Positions 13,783 through 52,213 of a stretch of DNA of 64,000 bases are shown here, in pieces. The notes beneath the pieces were generated by a model. That model was not told where the DNA came from. It saw only the letters and a list, made by a program, of their open reading frames with translations, and did not search any database. Each line of letters starts with the position of its first letter. Position 1 is the stretch's first letter. Made by a program: the position numbers and the translations under genes. The stretch covers positions 1 through 64,000 of the forward strand of contig JAJFKF010000017.1 in the NCBI GenBank assembly GCA_021773365.1. The letters are read 5' to 3'. The stretch comes from Gammaproteobacteria bacterium. GTDB taxonomy: Bacteria; Pseudomonadota; Gammaproteobacteria; Steroidobacterales; Steroidobacteraceae.

Positions 13783-14325
13783 CTACCGGTCCCATTTCGC
13801 GGCGCGCAGCAGGGCCAGCGCGCGGGTCAGATGTTTGTGCACCATGTTCACGGAGATGCCCAGCCTCTGCGCGGTCTCCTCATAGGAGTGTCCCTCCTGT
13901 TTGTGCAGGATCAGCACCGCGCGGCCGGTGGGATGGAGTTTGTCGAGCGCCCGGGCGAGCTGGCGCTCCAGGCCCACCTGTTCGCCCACCGGGTCCTCGA
14001 AGTAGGGCGCCGGCCGCTCGCTCCAGGCGTCGGCCTCCTCGGAGTCGAAGGTGACCAGTTCGCGCCGTGCGCGCAACTTGAATTCGTACACCACATGCGA
14101 GGCGATGCGGTACAGGTAGGCCTGGTAGTTGCGGATGGGCTCGCCCTTCTCCACCCGCAGCAGCCGCAGATAGATCTCCTGCGCCAGGTCGGTGGCATCC
14201 TGCGGGCGCTGGTTGCGCAGGCAGCGGCTCAGGTAGCGGTGCAGCTGCTGACCGTACTGCTTCCACACCGGATCGATCCGGTCGGCGGCGCGCTGGGTCA
14301 TCTTGGCATCGGCATCCGGTTTCAC
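13783..14325 (-). CDS. ECF sigma factor, FecI type (unit 3)
   Basis: 180 aa starting from a GTG at 14325 (an ATG at 14301 is possible). Region 2: DATDLAQEIYLRLLR. Region 4: GHSYEETAQRLGISVNMVHK. It is followed at 2 bp by fecR and divergent from the receptor at 14473. Predicted to transcribe that receptor when its FecR is triggered. Confidence 0.92.
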   Translation of the reverse strand: MKPDADAKMTQRAADRIDPVWKQYGQQLHRYLSRCLRNQRPQDATDLAQEIYLRLLRVEKGEPIRNYQAYLYRIASHVVYEFKLRARRELVTFDSEEADAWSERPAPYFEDPVGEQVGLERQLARALDKLHPTGRAVLILHKQEGHSYEETAQRLGISVNMVHKHLTRALALLRAAKWDR

Positions 14326-14375
14326 GATTCATCCACGCAGGAGGTCCCTAGGTATATTAGGCTGACCGAGCGGCA

Positions 14376-14411
14376 CGAAGTGGGCCCAAATAATTTATTT
14401 GGCCCAGTTCG
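14376..14411. promoter_or_regulatory. Imperfect dyad in divergent promoter (unit 3)
   Basis: TGGGCC-C-AAATAA (14381-14393) mirrors TTATTTGGCCCA (14395-14406) with one bulged C. After a mismatch, CGAA (14376-14379) mirrors TTCG (14408-14411). The AT-rich core lies 61 bp before the receptor ATG. Function unproven. Confidence 0.45.
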
Positions 14412-14472
14412 CCGGCGTTTACCCGCCTATACAGATCACGGGAGTGTCCCGGGCCTGTTGGGAACGAAAACG

Positions 14473-17400
14473 ATGAATACACTGCGATGCTTCATGATGG
14501 GCGGAACGCTGGCCTTGCTGGCGGTGCTCTGCTGCAGTGCGAACGCGGCGGATAAACCGGCCTCCACCGTGACGCTGGATATCAAGGCCCAGCCACTGGA
14601 CGATGCGCTCAATACCTTCGGCGAGCAGTCCGGTCTGCAGGTGGTTTTCCTGTCGCGCATCGGCAAGGGGCTGACCGCGCCACGGCTGTCCGGCTCCTAC
14701 ACTCCTGACAAGGCACTCGAGCAGCTGCTCAAGAATACCGCGCTGCGATTTGAGTTCATCAATGAGCGTACGGTGGCCATAAGTGCCTTGCAGCAGCATG
14801 TCTCCGGTGAACCGCAGGCATTGAACACTGCGGACCGGCCGGCGGACCCGGCGCTGAGGCTGGCTCGGGCCCAAGGCGACACCGAGATTCGCGCCGCGGA
14901 TGAGCCGGTCCGCTCGGGCAGGACCGCCGCCACGGCCGAAGACGTTGCGTTGAAAGGTATTCCGGAAATCCTCGTCAAGGGCGCGCGCACTTCCAACACC
15001 GACATCCGCCGCACCGAGGATGATGTGCAGCCGTATGTGGTATTCGACGCCGAGGAGATCGGGCGCTCCATGGCGCCGGATCTGGATACATTTCTGAGAA
15101 CGCGTCTGCCCATGAATCAGTCCCGTCGCGATGAAAGCCGGCATATGGCGAGTAGCCGAGGCGGTCAGAGCTCGATTGATCTGCGCGGGCTGGGGGCTGA
15201 CCAGACTCTGGTGCTGGTCAACGGTCGGCGCATGCCCAGCGTTGCCGGTCAGTCTGACCTCTGGCAGCCGGACATCAATGGAATTCCTCTGTCGGCGGTA
15301 GAGCGTATCGAGATTCTGCCCTCCACGGCCGGCGGGATCTACGGGGGCGGGGCCACTGGCGGGGTGGTCAACATCATTCTCAAGCGCAACTACTCGAACA
15401 TGGAACTGACCGCCCGCTATGACGGATCATTTGCCGGTGGCGGCGCCGAGCGGCGCCTGGATGCCACGGCGGGATGGACACTGGAGGGTGGGCGCACCAG
15501 CGTAATGCTCATGGGAAGCTATCGGGGCGGCAACCCGCTGTATGTGGGTGACCGGGATTTCACCGCCCGTGCTCTTGCTCTTCAGGAGAAAAACAACCAC
15601 GCAGCATTTCGCGGCCTGCGCGATCCGGTGCACGGCTATACCACCAACATCAGGAGCGTCAGCGGCAATGACCTGGTGCTCGAGGCAGACTTGCGCTCGC
15701 TGAACGCGAACATCGCGCATGTGCCGGTGGGTTATGCAGGGCCGGCCAGTGACAACGGCGCAGCCCTGCTTGGTACGGCAGATCAATACAACCTGATGCT
15801 GGCGGAGGATCCGCTCGGAAATCAGTACTCTCTGGCGAGCACGCCCACGGTGCGTTCACTGCAAATCAGTGTGCGGCGGGAATTCACCGATCGCCTTGAG
15901 GTGTTCGCGGATGCCTCGCGCTACGACAACCGCTCTGAGCGGATGGGTTCGATCAGTGTGAGTAACGAGGTCGTCGTAACATTGCCGGTCGGGCCAAACA
16001 ATCCTTTTACCGAGGCTGTGGAGCTCTCTGTGCCCCTGGCTGGTTACGGGAGCGGTGCATTGCGCAGCCCTTCCAGATCATTGAGTGATCGACTCAGCAG
16101 TGGAGTAATCGTGCGCCTGCCACGGGAGTGGGTGGCGCAGGGCGAATACAACTGGAGCGAGTCGGAGCATATGTACAATTATTCGAGAGATGCCGTACTC
16201 GCGGATTTCGGCGCCGCGCTGATCGACGGACGGCTGAATCCGCTGAGCGATGTCAATGCGTATCCGATCGATTTCTCCGCGTTCTATCCGGGCGAGGATA
16301 GCGAGCGCGTTTCCAGTTCGTTTCCCACAGAGCAGCAGATTGCCACGCTGCGGGTATCCGGCCCGCTGCTTGCGCTGCCTGGAGGGCCGCTGCGGTTAGC
16401 CGCATTGCTCGAGCGTCAGGAGCAATATACGGGTGATCGCATCCTGGCCACCTATCCCAGCGGCGCAGGCACGCCCACCTTCCTTTACTACCCCCAGGTC
16501 GGCTCGAAAATCGACAGCGGATACGTGGAACTGAATGCACCGCTGGTTTCGTCGGCCAACGCCCGGCCCGGATTACTGAGTCTCGATCTGCTCGCCACCT
16601 ATCGTCACGATGCCACCGCGACCCGCACCAGGACTCGTGACATGACCTACATATCCGTGCCATCGGCCGATGGCCCGATACCGGAGGTACCGTTCCAGAC
16701 CAGCAAGGTCACAGGCAACCAGTACACGTTGGGTTTTCGCTATACGCCGGTGGAGAGCCTGGCGCTGCGGGTCAGCTATGGCGAAGGAATACTGCCGCCA
16801 GTGCCGAACCAGCTTGCCGCGAATGACTTCGGGCCTGCATTGCTCGCAATATTTCGCTACTTCGATCCAAAGCGTGGCGATGAGCGGATTTCTCCGGATA
16901 CGGTGGAGGAATTCACGACCCAGGGCTTTCTGGGGCTGTATCCGGAGCTGTCCAGGAGCTGGTCCGGAGGGGCGATATTCACGCCGGCCAGCCTGCCAGG
17001 GTTCAGGCTGTCAGTTGACTATACGCGTATCGAGAAGACCAATGAGATCGGATCGCTATCTTCGCAGGGGCTCATCGATCTGGGAGATGACTTTCCGGAC
17101 AGGATCGTGCGCAATCCGCTCACGCCCGCCGATGAGGCGCTTGGCTTCACCGGCGGAACGATTCGCGCGCTGTATCTGGGGAATGTGAACATTGCCCACA
17201 GTCTGATGGAGGCATTCGATATTCAGGCGGACTACACGTGGGAGACGCGCCTCGGATCGTTTTCCGCGAATCTGATTGCGACCGTGCAGCCGCGGCTCTC
17301 GCAGCAGCCTACGGTGGACAGTGAAGTAATCGAGAGTGTGGGCTACAGCAATGGCCCGATGAAGTGGCGTGGCAACGCGGGTCTGCGCTTCAGTCGTGGC

Positions 17401-17748
17401 GCCCTCGATCTGGGATGGAACATGCAGTACTACGAGACCTCCCGGCTCTATACCAGCACGTCCTCGGAGAGTTTCCGCGCCACGGTGGTACTCAATCAGG
17501 GTTCTGAACAGATACCTACGCAGACCTATCACGATGTGTATGGTCGCTACAGTTTTGGCAGCGTGTCCGGTCTGGCCGGTGGACTGCTGGAGAATTCGGA
17601 GCTGCAGATCTCGGTGCAGAATGTCCTCAACACCAGCCCGCCTATCCTGGCTTCGACCAGTTCCATTCTCTATGGCGGCTATGCCACCGAAGGCGACCCG
17701 CGCCTGCGGCGTTATTCCATCGCCTTCACCAAGCGCTTCGGCCGCTGA
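14473..17748 (+). CDS. TonB-dependent receptor with STN domain (unit 3)
   Basis: 1091 aa from ATG 14473 (MNTLRCFMMGG). The open frame continues far upstream, but only across the antisense of the sigma gene. Signal peptide 1-26, STN 33-105 (PLDDALNTFGEQSGLQVVF), linker motif LRLARAQGD near 128-136, TonB-box-like PEILVKGAR near 164-172, plug with TEDDVQPYVVF, barrel ending in RRYSIAFTKRFGR. Close paralogue of the receptors at 23609, 28748, 34050 and 39812. Ligand unknown. The gene is followed directly by a headless receptor remnant. Confidence 0.95.
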   Translation: MNTLRCFMMGGTLALLAVLCCSANAADKPASTVTLDIKAQPLDDALNTFGEQSGLQVVFLSRIGKGLTAPRLSGSYTPDKALEQLLKNTALRFEFINERTVAISALQQHVSGEPQALNTADRPADPALRLARAQGDTEIRAADEPVRSGRTAATAEDVALKGIPEILVKGARTSNTDIRRTEDDVQPYVVFDAEEIGRSMAPDLDTFLRTRLPMNQSRRDESRHMASSRGGQSSIDLRGLGADQTLVLVNGRRMPSVAGQSDLWQPDINGIPLSAVERIEILPSTAGGIYGGGATGGVVNIILKRNYSNMELTARYDGSFAGGGAERRLDATAGWTLEGGRTSVMLMGSYRGGNPLYVGDRDFTARALALQEKNNHAAFRGLRDPVHGYTTNIRSVSGNDLVLEADLRSLNANIAHVPVGYAGPASDNGAALLGTADQYNLMLAEDPLGNQYSLASTPTVRSLQISVRREFTDRLEVFADASRYDNRSERMGSISVSNEVVVTLPVGPNNPFTEAVELSVPLAGYGSGALRSPSRSLSDRLSSGVIVRLPREWVAQGEYNWSESEHMYNYSRDAVLADFGAALIDGRLNPLSDVNAYPIDFSAFYPGEDSERVSSSFPTEQQIATLRVSGPLLALPGGPLRLAALLERQEQYTGDRILATYPSGAGTPTFLYYPQVGSKIDSGYVELNAPLVSSANARPGLLSLDLLATYRHDATATRTRTRDMTYISVPSADGPIPEVPFQTSKVTGNQYTLGFRYTPVESLALRVSYGEGILPPVPNQLAANDFGPALLAIFRYFDPKRGDERISPDTVEEFTTQGFLGLYPELSRSWSGGAIFTPASLPGFRLSVDYTRIEKTNEIGSLSSQGLIDLGDDFPDRIVRNPLTPADEALGFTGGTIRALYLGNVNIAHSLMEAFDIQADYTWETRLGSFSANLIATVQPRLSQQPTVDSEVIESVGYSNGPMKWRGNAGLRFSRGALDLGWNMQYYETSRLYTSTSSESFRATVVLNQGSEQIPTQTYHDVYGRYSFGSVSGLAGGLLENSELQISVQNVLNTSPPILASTSSILYGGYATEGDPRLRRYSIAFTKRFGR

Positions 17749-17848
17749 GGCGCCGGCTTGCTGAAGGCCCCTGCCAGCGGGAGGGCGGGGAATAGTTTTG
17801 TCCTGGCGTGGTGCCCCGCGCCATGCCGTCATAAGCACTATCCCGAAA

Positions 17849-19089
17849 AGGGCAGCACCACCGGCAGTGCCTATGTGGAGCTCACCGCCCCGCTGGTCGC
17901 CGCGGCGAATGCACGGCCGGGCATCCTGGGACTGGAGTTGCAGGCCTCGTACCGCTATGACACCACCGATATCGTCGGGCGCAGCTGGGCCGGCAGCCGG
18001 ATCGTGATACCTGCGCTCGAGGGGCCGTATCCGCAGGCGGATGTCATTGATGTCAGCGTGGAGGGGAACCAGTACACCCTCGGCCTGCGTTATCAGCCGG
18101 TCGAGCAGCTGGCCCTGCGCGCCAGCTATGGCGAGGGCGTGCTGCCGCCGCCGATCCTCAAGCTGGCGCCGTCCACCTTCCCCGCCAATTTGCTGTTCCT
18201 TATAGCGTCGCGATACACCGATCCGAAGCGCGGCGGCCAGACGCTGACGTCGCTGGCCGAGTTCACCTCTCTCGGCAGTCCTGACCTGCTGCCCGAGCAG
18301 TCGGCGAGCTTCTCCGCCGGGATGATCTTCACGCCGCGATCCCTTCCGGGCCTGCGGCTGTCCGTGGACTACACGAAGATCGACAAGGTAGATGAGATCG
18401 GCAGCATCAATCTGCAGGACCTGATCAATCTGGAAGATCAGGCCTTCGCCAGCCGCATCACCCGCGGCCCGCTGACCCCGGCGGATCAGGCGCTGGGCTA
18501 CACCGGGGGGCCCATCGTCGCACTCGACGGTGGGACGGTCAACGTGGCCAGCTCTTCAATGGAGGCTTTCGATCTGCAGCTCGATTACACCTGGCACACG
18601 GCCCTTGGTGAGTTCCGGGCCAGCGTGATGGGCACCTACCAGCCGCATTTACAGCAACAGATTCTCCGAAGTGAGCCTGTCAAGGAGCGGGTGGGATACA
18701 ACCTCGGTCCGCTGAAGAAGCGCGGCAACGTGGGTCTGACCTGGGCGCGCGATGCCTGGTCCCTGGGCTGGAACATGCAGTACTACGATTCCTACCTGGT
18801 CTACGCGGGCGAACCGATCGATCCCTCGCTCGCAGTGCGGAACGGTTCGCCGGTGATTCCCTCGCAGAACTACCATGATCTATACGGCCGCTACCGCTTC
18901 GGTGATAACCAGCGTTCGCGCTGGGCGGGCCTGCTGAACAATGTCGAGTTGCGGATGTCGGTCAAGAATGTGCTGGACACCTCCCCGCCGATCGTCACCG
19001 ACAACTATCTCGGTTACTTCTCCGTCAGTCCCTACGGCGATCCGCGCCTGCGCAGCTACGCGATTACGTTGAGCAAGAGTTTCCAGTAA
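17849..19089 (+). pseudogene. 5'-truncated TonB receptor remnant (unit 1 subtype)
   Basis: About 413 codons of barrel sequence with no signal peptide, STN or plug. It starts with TGSAYVELTAPL, aligning to about residue 680 of the unit 1 receptor, and ends DPRLRSYAITLSKSF. The frame is open throughout and extends upstream to an ATG at 17758, but the first 30 residues are unrelated to receptors. It could not enter the outer membrane. It keeps ESLG-like features such as PSQNYHDLYGRYRFG, so decay is recent or the reading frame is being preserved, for example by conversion with its relative. Confidence 0.88.
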
Positions 19090-19106
19090 GGGCCGCGGCG
19101 TTTATT

Positions 19107-19142
19107 CGCAGGCGTGGATGGTCAAGCCCATCCGCGCCTGCG
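19107..19142. terminator. Hairpin after receptor remnant
   Basis: CGCAGGCGTGGATGG (19107-19121) pairs with 19128-19142 with a single G-T, 6-nt loop. It lies 18 bp after the remnant stop. No T-run follows. Confidence 0.5.
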
Positions 19143-19271
19143 GTTTCCGGTGGCCGCGCGTCATGCCTACATAAGAGCATGATTTATAAATAAAAAATAA
19201 CAATCTCCGGTTCGCCGGTTCCAGAAAAACCCGCTCACTCGTTACGGCAGCTGTGGGGTCGACCCCCCACG
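19143..19271. other. AT-rich junction between two receptor remnants
   Basis: Non-coding stretch with an AT-rich island (about 19170-19205), a repeated CCGGTTC, and a 12-bp perfect palindrome, GGGGTCGACCCC, ending near 19266. No terminal repeats of an insertion sequence were found. Confidence 0.4.
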
Positions 19272-19912
19272 GTCGCAACCAGTTGACCGCCGCGGACGCG
19301 GCGCTCGGTTACACGGGCGGCACGATCCGGGAAGTGAATGGCCGCACCGTGAATATTGCCAAGAGCCTGATGGAGGCGTTCGACCTCCAGGCCGACTACA
19401 GCTGGGAGACGCGCTTCGGTTCCTTTGCCGCTAACGTGATGGCCACCGTGCAACCACGCCTCTCACAGCAGGCCGCACCGGGCAGCGAGAATATCGACAC
19501 GGTCGGCTACAGCAATGGCCCGTTGAAATGGCGAGCCAATGCAGGCCTGCGCTGGAGTCGTGGCGCCTGGGATCTGAGCTGGAACCTGCAGTACTACGAT
19601 GCCTATCGGGTCTATACCAGCACGGCCTCGGCCACCAGCCGCAACAATCTGGTGCTCGGGCAGGGTACTGAATGGATTCCGACCCAGACCTATCATGATG
19701 TGTACGGCCGCTACCGTTTCGAGAACGCGCCCGGCTTCGCCAGTGGTTTGCTGGAGAACACCGAGCTGCAGATCTCGGTGCAGAACGTGCTCAACACCAG
19801 TCCGCCCATCCTGGCCTCGCCCGCCTACTATGTGGTCAGCGGCTATGCAGCTGAAGGCAACCCGCGCCTGCGGCGCTATTCCATCGCCTTCACCAAGCGC
19901 TTCGGTCGCTGA
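19272..19912 (+). pseudogene. 5'-truncated TonB receptor remnant (unit 4/6 subtype)
   Basis: About 213 codons covering only the last strands of a barrel, from LTAADAALGYTGGTIRE to RRYSIAFTKRFGR, very similar to the C-termini of receptors at 23609 and 34050. The open frame begins upstream at 19253 in unrelated sequence. It cannot be a functional receptor, yet it carries no stop or frameshift. Confidence 0.88.
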
Positions 19913-45066: not shown

Positions 45067-45624
45067 ATGCGCAGTAAAGAACCCTGTACCCAGGCCGGTC
45101 ACCAGTCGGCGCCGGAGCAGTCCGGCGACGAGCACCGCACTGCGGTCAAGACGTTGTTCCGGGAGCACAATCGCGCGCTGGTGAGTTTCCTGCTTGCCCG
45201 CCTGTCCTCTGAGCAGGAAGCACGTGACGTTGCGCAGGAGGCGTATGTGCGTCTGCTGCAGCTTGACAGTCCCGGAACCATCGGCTTTCTCCGCGGCTAC
45301 CTGTTTCGCATTGCCGCGAACCTCTCGGTGGACCGGGTGCGCATTCGTGCAGTGAGAGAGAGGACGATGGAGGTCTTCGATGAGTTCTCCGAAGTGGAGA
45401 TGGTCGAAGGACAGGCCATGACTCACCAGGAATTTGAACAGGCTTGCGAGGCATTGAACGAATTGGCGCCGCGATGTCGCGAGGCTTTTGTCCGGCATGT
45501 GGTCGAGGGATACAGTACGCCGGAAGTGGCGAGGGAACTGCGCGTGGATGAGCGCACGGTTCGAAAGTACGTCACGCGTGCTCTGGTGCACTGCCGTGCG
45601 CGTTTGCGGGGGAGTGGCAGATGA
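45067..45624 (+). CDS. ECF sigma factor, FecI type (unit 8)
   Basis: 185 aa. Region 2: ARDVAQEAYVRLLQ. Region 4: GYSTPEVARELRVDERTVRK. It is more distant from the other sigma factors and opens a colinear operon: sigma, fecR (4-bp overlap), receptor, esterase. Confidence 0.93.
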   Translation: MRSKEPCTQAGHQSAPEQSGDEHRTAVKTLFREHNRALVSFLLARLSSEQEARDVAQEAYVRLLQLDSPGTIGFLRGYLFRIAANLSVDRVRIRAVRERTMEVFDEFSEVEMVEGQAMTHQEFEQACEALNELAPRCREAFVRHVVEGYSTPEVARELRVDERTVRKYVTRALVHCRARLRGSGR

Positions 45625-46628
45625 GCGGACAACAAACGGTCCATGAGGCGGCCGGAGATTGGCTGCAAAGGCTGGATGACTCCGAGCTGAGCGAGGCGGA
45701 CATTCAGCGGTGGCTGGAGTGGTTCACGGAGGCCGATGCGCATCGGCGCGCCTTTGAAGAACTGCGGCAGCTGCGTGCGCGGCTGCGCGCAACGCCGGCT
45801 TCATGGCGCATCGAAATGCGCCGGAAACTGAATCTGCAGGCCCCGCCGGCTACCCGTTGGTGGACCCCGCCCCGACGCTGGGCGCTGGCTGCTGGCGTGG
45901 CGGTCGCGGTGCTGGCCGGCCTGTGGTGGCGAGGACCGCATCCGGGAGGCGAAACGCTGTACGTGGCGGCAGCCGATCGCCACCGCGTGGTCAGGCTCGA
46001 TGATGGATCTACGGCGGCTCTGGGCGCCGGTGCGGTCCTCGCGGTGTCGTATTCGGGCGAGCGACGTAGTCTGGATGTGCGGCGAGGCGAAGCCTATTTC
46101 GAAGTGCGTCGCGATCCGGGCAGGCCGTTCATGGTGTGGGCCGGCGGCGTGCGGGTGACGGCCATCGGCACGGCATTCAACGTACTGCACAACTCACGGC
46201 AGGTGACCGTAACGGTCACCGAAGGGGTGGTGTGGGTCGATTCGGTGCCGGGAAATGGGCAGGTCGTGGGTAGTCCGCTCGTGGCGTCCTCCGGCGAGAC
46301 GCACCTGGCGGTGGGGCAGCGATTGGTTGTGCCGCTGGCGACCGCCGCGGATGCAGCACCCGCCGCCAACGCCGACGGGCTGTCCGTCTGGCACAACGGC
46401 CGGGCGGATTTCATCAATGCGCCCTTGCACGAAGTGCTGCGGGTGGTCAATCAGCGCGCCGACACGCCATTGGACATCGGCGATCCGCGCGTGGCGTATC
46501 TGACCTACAGCGGTACGATCATGCAAGCGCACCTCGATGAGTGGATTGCTTCGCTGCCGCAGGTGTACGCAGTGCGTACCGTGCCGCTGAATGATGGGCG
46601 CCTGGCGCTGGTGATGCGCGCACAGTGA
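45621..46628 (+). CDS. FecR-family sigma regulator (unit 8)
   Basis: 335 aa. AAGDWLQRL and IQRWLEWFTEADAHRRAFEE at the N-terminus; membrane segment near 89-103 (WALAAGVAVAVLAGLWW). The FecR domain has VVRLDDGSTAALGAG, GEAYFEV, RPFMVWAGG, AIGTAFNVL. The C-terminal NRYN motif common elsewhere is replaced by NQRA, and the end (SLPQVYAVRTVPLNDGRLAL) is different. It is the most divergent FecR in the window. Confidence 0.92.
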   Translation: MSGQQTVHEAAGDWLQRLDDSELSEADIQRWLEWFTEADAHRRAFEELRQLRARLRATPASWRIEMRRKLNLQAPPATRWWTPPRRWALAAGVAVAVLAGLWWRGPHPGGETLYVAAADRHRVVRLDDGSTAALGAGAVLAVSYSGERRSLDVRRGEAYFEVRRDPGRPFMVWAGGVRVTAIGTAFNVLHNSRQVTVTVTEGVVWVDSVPGNGQVVGSPLVASSGETHLAVGQRLVVPLATAADAAPAANADGLSVWHNGRADFINAPLHEVLRVVNQRADTPLDIGDPRVAYLTYSGTIMQAHLDEWIASLPQVYAVRTVPLNDGRLALVMRAQ

Positions 46629-46656
46629 GCGGGGGGCCGTTTATCGTATCTGGCAC

Positions 46657-46701
46657 GTCGTTGAGCTGCGACATTTGAATGTCGCCGGTGTAATCAACGA
46701 C
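46657..46701. promoter_or_regulatory. Nested dyad before unit 8 receptor
   Basis: GTCGTTGA (46657-46664) mirrors TCAACGAC (46694-46701). Inside, GCGACATT (46668-46675) mirrors AATGTCGC (46678-46685). It fills the 88-bp gap between fecR and the receptor, so it may hold a receptor-specific promoter or an RNA hairpin. Confidence 0.48.
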
Positions 46702-46716
46702 CACGGGAGATGCGCA

Positions 46717-49700
46717 ATGTCCGCCACACGTTGCTTTGACAAATTAGCCCTCGGCTGCGCCGCCGTCTGGCTTGCGCTGGCGATGAATTCCGCTCTGGCC
46801 GCCGAGGTGGATCTCACCAGGAAAATCGGCTTCGACATCCCGGCCCAGCCTCTGTCTACGGCGCTGATCGAGTTCTCCAGGCAGGCACGCCTGCAGGTCA
46901 TGTCCTCGGGCGTTGATCTTGCCCGGCAGCGTTCGCCGGGCATTAATGGGCGGCACAGTATTCGTCAGGCGCTGAACCAGCTGCTGTCCGGCAGCGGCCT
47001 GCGTTTCAGTTCCACTGGGCCAAACACCATCGCGGTGCTGGCCACCGAAGCGCCGGAGCCGCAGGAGATGACGAGAGACGTTCGTGAGTTGCAGCTGTCG
47101 CAGGCGCGACACATGCGACTGGCCGAAAACAGCGGCGTATCGGCCACGGAGCAACCGGCCGAACAGCAGGGCGTAGCGGAGGAGGGTAACAAGGGTATCC
47201 CGGAGATTCTGGTCAAGGGCAGTCGCACGTTGAACACCGACATTCAGCGCACTGAGGACGACGTGCAGCCCTACGTGGTGATCGATCGCGAGCAGATCGA
47301 ACGCTCCATGTCCACCAATGTCGAGGAACTGCTCAAGACCCGTCTGCCAATGAATGCCATTCAGCGCACCTCCAGCCAGCTGGCTGGTAGCCAGCTGGGC
47401 AACCAGGGCGCCGTCAGTCTGCGTGGTCTGGGGCCGAACCAGACATTGATTCTCGTCGACGGCCGGCGGATGCCCAGCGTCAACACCGGCGAGCGCTTCG
47501 TGCAACCTGATATCAATGGCATTCCCTTGTCGTCGATCGAGCGTATCGAGATTCTGCCGTCGACGGCATCGGGTATTTATGGTGGTGGAGCTACAGGCGG
47601 CGTGATCAACATCATCACCCGCAAGGACTACGCCGGCCTCGATCTGGGGGCGACCTATGGCAATACCTTTGACACCGATTCCGGCGTCCGGCGTATCGAT
47701 CTCAGCACCGGCCTGGGTCTGGAGGGCGGCCGCACCCAGGTGCTTTTCTCCGCCAGCCATTCCACGAGCAATCCACTGTTGACCCGGGACCGCGACCTGG
47801 CGCGTCGCGCCCGCGAACGACAGTTTCAGAACAATCCGGCCGTGTTCTACACCAGCACCACCCCGCCCCACGGCTACACCAGCAATATTCACAGTCAGGA
47901 TGGCAGCAACCTGGTGCTCGACTCCGGTGCCGCACTGGGATTCCCGAATACCTACGTGCCCGTGGGTTACGCCGGTCCGGCCAGCGACAATGGCGCTGCG
48001 CTGGCGGCCAATGCCGGCAGGTACAACCTCGACCTGCCTGAGGATCAACTGGGCGGTCGCCGCAGCCTGCTGAGCAATCCCACCGTGACGTCGGCCACGC
48101 TGAGTCTGCGTCGTGACCTCGGTTCACGCGTGGAGGCCTATGCGGATGTCTCATCGCTGAGCAACGAAGGCCGCTCGCTGTGGACCGGTCCGAACACCCT
48201 TGCGCTGCCCGCTGACGCACCCGGGAATCCGTTCAGCAACCCCATCAACATCAGCTTTCCGGCCACCACGCTGAACTTCCGCAGCCGATCGACTTCGGAA
48301 ACCGTGCGCGCCACGGGCGGGTTGATCGTACGGCTGCCGCGGGCCTGGACCGCATCGCTGGACTATGTGTGGAGCCGCTCGCGCCACGAGAGCTCGACCA
48401 CCAACCCGGCGGTTGGCGATCCCGACGGACCCGCCGGCGGGGGGCAGTCGGTAACGACGGCTTTTACCAATGGCATTCTCGATCCGCTGCGAGATCTTAA
48501 CGCATTCCCGCTGGACTACTCGGCCTATCTCCTGCCTTCGCCGAATTCAATCTACGGCCCGGCAGATCTGTTCCTCGAGAACCTCGGCGTGCGGCTGTCG
48601 GGTCCGCTGTTTGAACTGCCCGCTGGCAGCGTCACGCTCTCAAGCCTGGTCGAACAACGCACCGAAGAGGCGGACGACACCTTCCAGGACACGCTCAACG
48701 CCAACGCGGTGGGCAGCGCGACGTACTATCCGGGGCGCTCGCAGGATGTGAACTCCTACTATCTGGAGGCGCGCGTGCCGCTGTTCTCCGCCGCCAATGC
48801 GCTGGGCCTGGTGCGCGAACTGGAGTTGCAGGCCTCGGTGCGCCACGATGAGTACGAAACCGCCTCGCCCAGTATCAACTCCACTACCGTGGCCTCGCGC
48901 ATGGGGCCGTTGCCGAGTGTGAGTTATTCCGACAGTCAGATCGAAGCCACCAAGTACACCGTGGGCGTGCGGTTTGCTCCGATGCAGGGTCTGGTGCTGC
49001 GCGCGAGCTTCGGCAGCGGATTTCTGCCGGCGAGCATCGAGCAACTGGTGCCGCCACCGGCGCCGTTCCCCATCCTGCTTCCGGCGATCGACCCAAAGCG
49101 CGGTGGGAACCTGTCTTTCGTCGGACCTTTTGCACTGACTTTCGGCGGCAACCCGGACCTCATGCCCGAGGAGTCGGAAAGCTGGTCCGCCGGGGCGATC
49201 CTCACGCCGCCGGCCTTGCCCGGTCTGCGACTGTCGTTGGACTACACCCGCATCGAAAAGAGCAATGAGATCACCACGTTGTTCATCCAGCCGACACTTG
49301 ATCTGGAAGACTATCTGCCGGGTCGCATCACCCGTCTGCCGCTTACGCCTGCCGAAGAGGCGTTGGGTTACACCGGTGGGGTGATCACCGCCATGGACGT
49401 GTCCTTCGTCAACGTCTCGGTCTCACGGCTGGAGGCCTATGACATCCAGGCGGACTATCGGCTGGAAACAGCCGGCCATGGCGATATCCATTTTTACGCC
49501 CTGGCCACCTGGCAGCCGGAGCTGGAGCGTCGTGCGGTGCCCACTGCCCCCTATGTCAATGAAGCCGGCTATACCTCCGGTCCGCTGAAGTTGCGCGGCA
49601 ATGCCGGACTGGTCTGGGATCGCGGACAGTGGACACTGGGCTGGAACATGCAGTTCTTCGATGACTACCGAGCCTATACGGCAACCCTGGCGCCCAGCTC

Positions 49701-49962
49701 GATTCCCGGTGCGATTCTCAACCAGGGCGCGGCCCGGATTCCCAGTCAGCACTATCACGATGTGCATGCATCATATCGTTTCGATGATGCCGCCAGCTGG
49801 ATGAACGATCTGCTCAAGAATGCCGAGCTGCGCGTGGGCGTGCAGAACCTGTTCGATGCCGCGCCGCCGCTGGTGGCCACGGTGAACCCGTACGAGGGTT
49901 ACAGTACCTACGCCGACCCGCGCCTGCGCCGCTACACCATCACGTTGCGCGCGCGATTCTGA
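46717..49962 (+). CDS. TonB-dependent receptor with STN domain (unit 8)
   Basis: 1081 aa from ATG 46717 (MSATRCFDKLA) with GGGAGA upstream; the ATG at 46675 lies in the dyad and gives a poor signal peptide. Signal peptide to about 29, STN about 36-108 (PLSTALIEFSRQARLQVM), TonB-box-like PEILVKGSR near 162-170, plug with QRTEDDVQPYVVIDREQ, barrel ending RRYTITLRARF with the canonical final Phe. An outlier of the main subfamily. Its TGA overlaps the ATG of the esterase gene by one base (TGATG). Confidence 0.95.
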   Translation: MSATRCFDKLALGCAAVWLALAMNSALAAEVDLTRKIGFDIPAQPLSTALIEFSRQARLQVMSSGVDLARQRSPGINGRHSIRQALNQLLSGSGLRFSSTGPNTIAVLATEAPEPQEMTRDVRELQLSQARHMRLAENSGVSATEQPAEQQGVAEEGNKGIPEILVKGSRTLNTDIQRTEDDVQPYVVIDREQIERSMSTNVEELLKTRLPMNAIQRTSSQLAGSQLGNQGAVSLRGLGPNQTLILVDGRRMPSVNTGERFVQPDINGIPLSSIERIEILPSTASGIYGGGATGGVINIITRKDYAGLDLGATYGNTFDTDSGVRRIDLSTGLGLEGGRTQVLFSASHSTSNPLLTRDRDLARRARERQFQNNPAVFYTSTTPPHGYTSNIHSQDGSNLVLDSGAALGFPNTYVPVGYAGPASDNGAALAANAGRYNLDLPEDQLGGRRSLLSNPTVTSATLSLRRDLGSRVEAYADVSSLSNEGRSLWTGPNTLALPADAPGNPFSNPINISFPATTLNFRSRSTSETVRATGGLIVRLPRAWTASLDYVWSRSRHESSTTNPAVGDPDGPAGGGQSVTTAFTNGILDPLRDLNAFPLDYSAYLLPSPNSIYGPADLFLENLGVRLSGPLFELPAGSVTLSSLVEQRTEEADDTFQDTLNANAVGSATYYPGRSQDVNSYYLEARVPLFSAANALGLVRELELQASVRHDEYETASPSINSTTVASRMGPLPSVSYSDSQIEATKYTVGVRFAPMQGLVLRASFGSGFLPASIEQLVPPPAPFPILLPAIDPKRGGNLSFVGPFALTFGGNPDLMPEESESWSAGAILTPPALPGLRLSLDYTRIEKSNEITTLFIQPTLDLEDYLPGRITRLPLTPAEEALGYTGGVITAMDVSFVNVSVSRLEAYDIQADYRLETAGHGDIHFYALATWQPELERRAVPTAPYVNEAGYTSGPLKLRGNAGLVWDRGQWTLGWNMQFFDDYRAYTATLAPSSIPGAILNQGAARIPSQHYHDVHASYRFDDAASWMNDLLKNAELRVGVQNLFDAAPPLVATVNPYEGYSTYADPRLRRYTITLRARF

Positions 49963-51410
49963 TGCGCGGTTCCTTCATGTCCGCACTGCTCGGTCTGTGC
50001 CTGACTGTCTTTCCGCATGTTCACGCCTGGTCGTCCGATCCATTGCAGGAACGGCTGGCCGCCAATGCGGTGGTGGTACACGACATCGATCCGGCGGCGG
50101 CTGCGCGCGCCGAACGGGTTGACGAGCTGCGGGAGTTGGCGCTGGAGGTGCGTACACTGGACCCGATGGACGAGGCGTTCTCGGATCTACGCCCGTTGGT
50201 CCGGCTCATCGGTGATGCCAGAGTGGTGGCGCTGGGCGAATCCAGTCACGGTGATGGCAACTGCTTCCGTGCGAAGGCCAGGCTGATCAAGTTCCTACAT
50301 CAGGAGATGGGATTCGATGTCATCGCCTGGGAGGCGCCACAGCATGCCACCCGGCTGGCCGACCGACTGCTGTCGGTGGGCGTGGATGCGGCGCTCGAGG
50401 CCGCTGTGCTGCCCGGCTGGATGACCACCAACGAGGCCTTTCCCCTGGTTGAATACGTGCATGCCACACGTAACGGGGCGGATCGCACGCCGATCTCGAT
50501 GGCGGGATTCGACTGCATGTATGACGAGCGCTATCTCGAGGATCTGTTTGCCTTTCTGGATGCGGTGATCGAACCCGAGGGAGACGTGGACGAGTTCCAC
50601 ATCGGTCGGCGGGAGCGGGAGGATATCGCGCTGCTGGTGCGTGCTTGCGCGCGTGCGCGCAGGGTAGACGGTGAGTTTGTTTATGATCTGAAGGAACACT
50701 CGTCCCGCGCGCGGCAAAGACTGTCGTTGGTGCGGACCATCGACACCATCGATGCGCGGCGTACGGCGTTCGCAGCCGTCCACGGCGAACTGGAGGTTGA
50801 ATACTGGCTGCGGACACTTCGTAACGTATTGCTGCGCGAGAGGTCGGCGTTTGCAGCATTGTTGGCGAACAGCGAGGATGGATACGGAGGCTGGAACCTG
50901 GCGTCGCGGAACCTGCGCGACCGCGCGATGGGCGAGACGCTGGTATGGTTGGCAAACGAAGTGTTCCCCGACAGAAAGCTGATCGTATGGGCCGCCACCT
51001 ATCACAGCGCGGTGGCGGCGGGCGAGCTGGAGGACCCGCGGTGGCCAATGCGCGGTACGGTCTCCATGGGCGACGTCGCCAGGCGGGCGCTTGGAGACAG
51101 CTACTACAGCATTGGATGCGTCGCCGGTGAAGGTGCATGGGGACTTGGGAAAGGATATGGACGGATTGAGCCGGCGGGGCCGGATACCCTGGATGGCCTG
51201 CTCATGGCGACGGGAATGGAACACAGTTACCTGCCGCTGCGCGGGCTGCCGCCGGTGCACTGGCTACGCGAAAGACTGGTATCACGGCATCTGCGCTACG
51301 GAGACACTTCGGGCAGCTGGCCGGATCACCTCGACGGCATTTTCTTCACCCGCACGGAACGGCCCGTTAGCCGTTTGACCCGGCCCCGCTCCAGCCCGGG
51401 CTCCAACTAG
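49962..51410 (+). CDS. Secreted erythromycin-esterase family protein
   Basis: 482 aa with an N-terminal signal peptide (about 1-22). The core matches the erythromycin esterase (EreA/EreB) family: VVALGESSHGDGN (GExxHG at 92-97), FLHQEMGFDVIAWEAP and RNLRDRAMGETLVWLAN. Members hydrolyse macrolide lactones or have unknown, possibly other ester, substrates. It is translationally coupled to the receptor, so it probably acts on what the receptor imports, in the periplasm. Alternatively it is a resistance gene; its secretion and coupling argue for the first. Confidence 0.88.
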   Translation: MRGSFMSALLGLCLTVFPHVHAWSSDPLQERLAANAVVVHDIDPAAAARAERVDELRELALEVRTLDPMDEAFSDLRPLVRLIGDARVVALGESSHGDGNCFRAKARLIKFLHQEMGFDVIAWEAPQHATRLADRLLSVGVDAALEAAVLPGWMTTNEAFPLVEYVHATRNGADRTPISMAGFDCMYDERYLEDLFAFLDAVIEPEGDVDEFHIGRREREDIALLVRACARARRVDGEFVYDLKEHSSRARQRLSLVRTIDTIDARRTAFAAVHGELEVEYWLRTLRNVLLRERSAFAALLANSEDGYGGWNLASRNLRDRAMGETLVWLANEVFPDRKLIVWAATYHSAVAAGELEDPRWPMRGTVSMGDVARRALGDSYYSIGCVAGEGAWGLGKGYGRIEPAGPDTLDGLLMATGMEHSYLPLRGLPPVHWLRERLVSRHLRYGDTSGSWPDHLDGIFFTRTERPVSRLTRPRSSPGSN

Positions 51411-51691: not shown

Positions 51692-52213
51692 ATGAAAGAC
51701 AGCACGCCCGACCGTCAGGCCCTGGTCGCCGAGCTCGCCGCCCGGCACGGGCAGACGTTGCGCCGCTACCTGTCCGACCGCATCCGCAACCGTGCCGATG
51801 TGCCTGATCTGGCCCAGGAGGTGTACCTGCGCCTGCTGCGCGTGCAGGACCACGGACACATCCGTAGCGCCGAGGCCTACCTGTTCACCGTGGCCACCAA
51901 CCTGGTCTATGAGCACACCGTTCGCCAGTCGGCCCGACCGACGGTAGTGACCTTTGATGATGCGGCCTCGGAGCTGTACGCCGCCGATGAGGCTGATCCG
52001 GCCGAGCGAGCCGTGGTCGGGCAGCGCTTCGAGGCGCTGGAACGGGTGATCGGCCGGCTTACGCCGAAGACGCGCACCGTGTTGCTGCTGCACCGGCGCG
52101 AGGGCATGACGCTGGAAGAAATCGCCCGGCGGCTGGGCATTTCGCGCAACGTGGTGAAGAAACACATCGCCAAGGCATTGTTGTACTGCCGGAAGAACCT
52201 GAGGAAGGAGTAG
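51692..52213 (+). CDS. ECF sigma factor, FecI type (unit 9)
   Basis: 173 aa. Region 2: DVPDLAQEVYLRLLR. Region 4: GMTLEEIARRLGISRNVVKK. It leads a colinear operon with fecR (7-bp gap) and two receptors. Similar in layout to the unit 2 sigma factor. Confidence 0.93.
   Translation: MKDSTPDRQALVAELAARHGQTLRRYLSDRIRNRADVPDLAQEVYLRLLRVQDHGHIRSAEAYLFTVATNLVYEHTVRQSARPTVVTFDDAASELYAADEADPAERAVVGQRFEALERVIGRLTPKTRTVLLLHRREGMTLEEIARRLGISRNVVKKHIAKALLYCRKNLRKE

Follow-up and report, generated by a model that had tools for sequence, protein, structure and literature searches.

What is an erythromycin-esterase-like (Ere; PF05139) protein doing at the end of a FecI-type cell-surface-signalling operon? 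The question is raised by a 64,000-nucleotide stretch of a Steroidobacteraceae genome (Gammaproteobacteria bacterium, assembly GCA_021773365.1, contig JAJFKF010000017.1, positions 1 to 64,000), which we analysed as a whole and refer to as the window. On its + strand, positions 45067-51410 carry a four-gene operon coding for an extracytoplasmic function (ECF) sigma factor, a FecR protein, an STN-type TonB-dependent receptor (TBDR) and a predicted exported Ere-family protein. This is not an isolated case: the TBDR-Ere architecture is real and recurrent, and all 15 PF05139 genes of the 3.97 Mb genome are located at FecI/FecR-TBDR systems. In the following, C numbers denote contigs, L numbers fetched stretches and G numbers sampled genomes.

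The operon and the probable enzyme at its end

The sigma and FecR open reading frames overlap, a gap of 88 bp separates the FecR gene from the TBDR gene, and the TBDR and Ere genes share a stop/start overlap (Table 1). An earlier note on this DNA had placed the receptor and the enzyme correctly, had read the overlap as tying the two translations together and had assigned them a private sigma/FecR pair, which is indeed found directly upstream. Like the FecI-FecR-FecA system, the window operon combines an ECF sigma factor (with both regions 2 and 4), a FecR protein and a receptor with an N-terminal STN domain. Unlike that system, it has a gene for a predicted secreted hydrolase in place of the inner-membrane transporter set, and it belongs to a population of ~150 paralogous copies. 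Between the STN and plug domains, the receptor of this operon shares a conserved linker stretch, GIPEILVKGxRTxNTDIxRTEDDVQPYVVxD, with most of the window's expanded receptors. Downstream of the Ere gene, the sigma factor gene of another such system starts 281 bp on, at position 51692.

The claim that the last gene codes for an Ere-like enzyme with an export signal is also supported. PF05139 was the only Pfam family matched at E<=0.001, with no family of the ChaN type among the matches. The AF2 model of the protein (mean pLDDT 86) resembled most closely the structures 2qgm (Z 39.8) and 3b55 (Z 39.5), followed by EreC (6xcs, Z 34.3), while the first match beyond the Ere family was ChaN (2g5g, Z 13.6 over 206 residues). 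Export is predicted from a hydrophobic N-terminal stretch fit for a signal peptide, recognised by visual inspection and hydropathy scanning in the window protein and in nearly all of its paralogues.

Although overall identity to EreC is only ~13%, all five EreC residues with assigned catalytic roles (E47, H50, E78, R261 and H289; PMC7979712) are kept in the window protein, as E93, H96, E124, R319 and H348. The same five are invariant across 11 canonical paralogues of the genome; in a divergent subgroup of three paralogues (C102, C57), the sequence E, H, E, H is retained and glycine replaces the arginine. We also considered whether the catalytic histidine had been lost, the window protein reading WAATYH where many relatives read WAHNxH. 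This was ruled out: in the EreC chain, it is the second histidine position that holds the H289N substitution, so the catalytic histidine corresponds to H348, which is present. Since the Ere fold and the complete catalytic set occur together, the modelled protein is probably an active hydrolase. NCBI's model does not class it as a resistance enzyme of the EreB type (40 bits, cut-off 750).

Table 1. Features of the sigma-FecR-TBDR-Ere operon, in window coordinates.
Feature	Position	Strand	Basis
ECF sigma factor, FecI-like	45067..45624	+	Sigma70_r2 and r4_2 above Pfam cut-offs; best NCBIfam model PRK12527, 111 bits
FecR-type anti-sigma/sigma regulator	45621..46628	+	PF04773, 57.5 bits, and PF16220; overlaps sigma stop
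TonB-dependent receptor, transducer type (STN + plug), 1081 aa	46717..49962	+	Open reading frame and domain matches
STN signalling domain, TBDR residues 68-107	46918..47037	+	PF07660, E=5.2e-8, 33 bits vs cut-off 28.4
Plug domain, TBDR residues 184-296	47266..47604	+	PF07715, E=6.7e-20
TGATG stop/start overlap of TBDR and Ere genes	49960..49964	+	Read from sequence: ...CGATTC TGATG CGC...
Ere-family protein, 482 aa, predicted exported	49962..51410	+	PF05139, 108.7 bits vs cut-off 26.4
Putative Sec signal peptide MRGSFMSALLGLCLTVFPHVHA	49962..50027	+	Hydrophobic N-terminus, judged by eye; model low-confidence up to residue 24
Catalytic E93 and H96 (EreC E47, H50)	50238..50249	+	EreC alignment, roles from PMC7979712
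Catalytic E124 (EreC E78)	50331..50333	+	EreC alignment, roles from PMC7979712
R319 (EreC R261, transition-state stabiliser)	50916..50918	+	EreC alignment, roles from PMC7979712
Catalytic H348 (EreC H289; PDB chain carries H289N)	51003..51005	+	EreC alignment, roles from PMC7979712

Recurrence of Ere genes at receptors

Eleven of the 15 Ere genes lie directly 3' of a TBDR gene. Nine are codirectional with it (those of the window, C10, C74, C102 and C57, two on C152, the C69 fusion described below and the C67/C27 gene), and two, on C52 and C73, are convergent. The total is 15 and not 16, as the C67 fragment and the truncated C27 gene look like one gene split by contig ends. Of the remaining four, one is a tandem duplicate, one comes later in an operon of this kind and two abut a sigma or FecR gene belonging to such a system. 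With ~5% of genes directly 3' of a TBDR by chance, fewer than one of the Ere genes would be expected there, and the binomial probability is of the order of 1e-11 (calculated with n=16). TBDR-Ere spacings are tight (-1, 3, 49 and 50 bp), while the 15 copies themselves diverge strongly, sharing 16-40% identity with the window copy.

This pattern is part of an extreme expansion of the signalling systems themselves. At least 150 genes of the genome score as FecR (PF04773; 175 first-look candidates). The next-highest count among 100 genomes of the same family belongs to G073, a 7.1 Mb genome in which 30 of 37 candidates matched, and the maximum over 299 genomes of the phylum is 28 candidates; the phylum figures are compared as candidates, at most 16 per genome having been scored. 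Within 1.55 Mb of fetched sequence, 124 of the 134 full-length receptors have a sigma and a FecR gene within four genes, and the 64-kb window alone holds about ten such systems. About 150 FecI/FecR/TBDR sets in a 4 Mb genome are several-fold above the highest count in the other genomes sampled. A mixture of genomes is an unlikely source of the expansion because the assembly is 98.95% complete with 0.74% contamination. Receptors alone are also numerous in G105, a 9.4 Mb genome from another genus of the family, with 261 candidates.

Several other genes and remnants accompany the expanded receptors. At window positions 13888-19912, a receptor region is spread over several frames (pieces 14479-17739, 17833-19080 and 19274-19903) and is likely a decaying paralogue. 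A small coiled-coil-like gene is found in four copies convergent to receptors (window:37297-37683, L011:18353-18754, L049:6017-6325 and L107:3893-4144). An AAA_14/DUF4143 ATPase gene lies between two systems at window:43235-44545; at other places in the genome, ATPases of this type and a HigB-like toxin gene are also found as direct 3' neighbours of receptors.

Looking for the same gene pair in other genomes, as the earlier note had suggested, gave a divided answer: TBDR-Ere neighbours exist in other families of the order, but receptor-Ere neighbourhoods, which arise repeatedly, have so far been accompanied by a complete FecI/FecR-TBDR-Ere operon in this genome only. Canonical Ere relatives are rare in the other genomes sampled. 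Within the family, G073 alone holds a close one (42% identity to the C52 copy), which has no receptor beside it. Across the order, a relative at E<=1e-25 occurs in 28 of the 295 other genomes, and a receptor lies near the Ere gene in five of the 15 stretches inspected for neighbours. Their arrangements are varied: TBDR, M13, Ere and S9 (L229, from G184); Ere followed by TBDR (L231); TBDR, S41 and Ere (L237); TBDR, amidohydrolase, DUF1611, a PF00144 hydrolase and Ere (L230); and convergent Ere and TBDR genes with one gene between them (L227). The class and phylum samples yielded two Ere relatives at E<=1e-40, with a receptor beside neither. Among 80 loci of Ere relatives at large, mostly from Planctomycetota, Bacteroidota and Acidobacteriota, none had a receptor next to the Ere gene, though the receptor model would miss many SusC-type proteins.

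One of the order-level loci, L229, was a candidate for an orthologous TBDR-Ere pair in another family. Its receptor has L018_3, an Ere-linked receptor, as its closest match (46%, double the next score). The candidate was rejected: because the Ere genes of L229 and L018_3 are not mutually nearest, the resemblance is put down to re-pairing and not to inheritance. L229 also holds two PF00144 genes, which share 43% and 53% identity with the PF00144 gene adjoining Ere on C152.

Ligand class and rival explanations

What might such an operon take up? The reading we prefer, to which we give about an even chance, is that of a cell-surface-signalling uptake operon whose last gene encodes a hydrolase opening an imported, ester- or lactone-bearing, peptide-like ligand in the periplasm. 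An external ligand would dock on the STN-type TBDR, and a signal running from the receptor through its STN domain to FecR would release the private ECF sigma factor, which, once freed, would transcribe the operon. TonB-driven import through the receptor would then carry the ligand into the periplasm, there to be opened by the exported Ere-fold hydrolase. Most likely, the ligand would be a natural product whose peptide-like scaffold contains an ester (lactone) or comparable bond, such as a depsipeptide, a graspetide or another modified peptide. Ere would act on the ester as a lasso isopeptidase acts on the isopeptide bond in a module of the same kind.

The company that Ere keeps suggests a peptide-like ligand with an ester bond, in preference to a macrolide or a siderophore. 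We collected 61 cargo genes, defined as codirectional with a TBDR and no more than 200 bp 3' of it. AhpC-TSA/Redoxin or related thioredoxin-fold proteins make up 31 of them and PF05139 proteins seven, Ere being the second commonest cargo family, followed by a few S9, S41 and other hydrolases. Across the fetched stretches, the exported thioredoxin-fold (AhpC-TSA/Redoxin) cargo forms a cluster of 44 proteins (e.g., window:11534-12751 and L106:3316-5409). On C69, directly 3' of a TBDR, a secreted fusion of an S9 peptidase with Ere is encoded (L010:5315-9514, - strand; ~1,375 residues); among NCBIfam models, its S9 part scores best with that of the AtxE2 lasso isopeptidase, at 92 bits, below the cut-off of 400. 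In G105, the receptors related to that of the window operon (identity 42-44% in the four best cases) head sigma-FecR-TBDR operons with S9, S8 or S41 peptidases, in one case with a stop/start overlap (L256, position 9163). Behind a more distant G105 receptor (L258), a true AtxE2-type isopeptidase follows after 4 bp, with 642 bits against the cut-off of 400. Since related operons put peptidases or an AtxE2-type isopeptidase in this place and one Ere is fused to S9, Ere occupies the hydrolase position in a type of module otherwise known as the lasso isopeptidase cluster. The ligands put forward in the earlier note, a macrolide-like lactone or an ester siderophore, are not supported: cargo and S9 fusion point to peptide-type ligands, and the EreB model is far from being reached.

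Several observations weigh against this reading. No S9 gene is present among the genes of the window operon, which lacks any peptidase, and the commonest cargo, the thioredoxin fold, says little about esters. At the five order-level TBDR-Ere neighbourhoods (15 stretches), no FecI/FecR genes were found. Finally, Ere proteins and their receptors do not co-diverge (Mantel r -0.03, 8 pairs), so each TBDR-Ere pair may have its own ligand class. Ere linkage is, moreover, scattered over the receptor tree, with 10 changes for 11 linked receptors. Given this scatter and the lack of co-divergence, co-inheritance of Ere with its receptor was rejected, and the trees indicate that cargo has been re-paired with receptors over time.

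Other roles can be imagined for the enzyme. As a general secreted esterase, it could serve the uptake of some other acylated nutrient, such as a plant phenolic ester, a polyester or an acylated sugar. TBDR over-representation has been tied to carbohydrate scavenging in Xanthomonas and other bacteria (PMC1790865), but we consider this unlikely here, as the cargo consists of thioredoxin-fold proteins, Ere and peptidases, with no glycoside hydrolase in the 25 commonest of the 48 families matched among the 61 proteins. Somewhat less likely still is iron uptake, in which a ferric ester siderophore would be imported and opened by Ere to free its iron: the FecI/FecR/TBDR layout is classically iron-related (PMC9249621), yet 150 iron systems seem excessive for a 4 Mb genome. 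The upstream regions of 139 sigma and 158 TBDR genes yielded no Fur-box-like site of at least 14/19, but the probe is weak, given that the whole genome has no site within three mismatches. The known siderophore esterases, for their part, are alpha/beta hydrolases. Fur boxes can diverge widely, as shown by the 10/19 match in Xanthomonas (PMC1790865).

A protein with the Ere fold and every catalytic residue of EreC would also suit the detoxification of a macrolide-like lactone, taken up or sensed by the receptor and inactivated by the periplasmic enzyme, and the known Ere substrates are macrolides (PMC7979712). Against this stand the low identity to EreC, the score far below the EreB cut-off and the divergence of the fifteen copies, which argues against a single drug class. 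Nor are macrolides known as TBDR ligands, and we regard this explanation as improbable. Very improbable, in our opinion, is that Ere is a ligand- or cofactor-binding protein and not an enzyme, after the manner of haem-binding ChaN. ChaN is the first structural match after the Ere family and shares its fold superfamily; presumably it is tied to TonB receptors, a link for which we found no open-access paper. However, the window protein superimposes much more closely on Ere structures (Z 33-40), retains every Ere catalytic residue and has PF05139 as its sole Pfam match. We find it hardly credible that receptor and enzyme have no functional link and that a random shuffling of cargo genes in a receptor-crowded genome put Ere where it is. 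Such shuffling would account for the scattered linkage and the missing co-divergence, but not for 11 of 15 Ere genes as immediate 3' neighbours where fewer than one is expected, nor for the tight spacing, the S9 fusion and the TBDR-Ere neighbourhoods in other families.

Precedents and meaning

The preferred reading, an operon importing and opening a peptide-like ligand, has its nearest precedent in lasso isopeptidase clusters (astexin AtxE1/AtxE2, sphingopyxin, rubrinodin), in which a TBDR and a sigma/anti-sigma pair stand beside a hydrolase dedicated to a modified peptide (PMC9266682); as described above, such an operon in the related genome G105 holds a true member of the AtxE2 family. The window operon differs in that its hydrolase has the Ere fold and is not an S9 enzyme, that sigma and FecR come first and the hydrolase last, and that lasso biosynthesis genes are missing. 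The receptor of the G105 isopeptidase (L258:14136-16229, - strand) has a FecR gene upstream. No lasso biosynthesis genes were recognised in the 20 kb that hold this isopeptidase, which is perhaps meant for foreign lasso peptides.

Lasso-peptide genes are present elsewhere in the genome under study. No lasso B2 biosynthesis protein is encoded on the contig of the window; the two B2 genes of the genome are on C85 and C82. On C85 (L246:6011-13704), a B2 protein over the cut-off and a cyclase-like asparagine synthetase are followed by a TBDR-sigma-FecR set, and no precursor gene was identified in this cluster. The second B2 gene, at 505-840 of L247 (C82:1-8271), lies a few kb from a TBDR-sigma-FecR set.

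With the erythromycin esterases EreA/B/C/D, the window protein has PF05139, the fold and the catalytic residues in common. It is set apart from them by its distant sequence, its predicted N-terminal export signal and its place in an uptake operon and not in a resistance cassette. The closest solved structures (Z 39-40) are those of the Bacillus cereus Ere-fold proteins (3b55/2rad, BcR135; 2qgm), which come from a Gram-positive organism and, hence, one with no TonB receptor. Graspetide loci of gammaproteobacteria provide another parallel, as they tie an Ere-family enzyme, whose function was called unclear, to ester-cross-linked peptides (PMC8939145). These loci, however, are biosynthetic and have no receptor-sigma-FecR set.

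The earlier note knew of no description of an Ere-family enzyme as cargo of a FecI-type operon, and we found none in the open-access literature (subscription papers and preprints lay outside that search). Of 40 matches, the 25 listed dealt mostly with clinical resistance, the graspetide paper being the one of relevance, and no paper linked an erythromycin esterase to TonB receptors in the way described here. What is new, then, is Ere as cargo, the FecI/FecR/TBDR module with a dedicated hydrolase being already known. Occurring at least 11 times in the genome, among more than 100 copies of the sensor-receptor set, the receptor-Ere pairing looks like a general tool for the uptake and breakdown of compounds made by other organisms.

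It is tempting to go further, though only tentatively, since we hold the following picture to be rather doubtful as a whole. The organism might live by sensing, importing and dismantling the modified peptides and lactones of other microbes with more than 100 exchangeable sigma-FecR-receptor-enzyme cassettes. Its Ere proteins would be periplasmic ester-openers for graspetides and depsipeptides, the ester counterpart of lasso isopeptidases, a native function that could have given rise to Ere resistance.

If our preferred reading is true, the Ere family, known mainly for macrolide resistance, would gain a role in the environment, as part of a regulated operon for import and digestion. This reading would also open a route to the ligands of orphan receptors, with the enzyme predicting the bond and the sigma factor supplying the reporter. 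The setting is remarkable as well, a genome with ~150 FecI/FecR/TBDR sets being a natural library of receptor-enzyme pairs.

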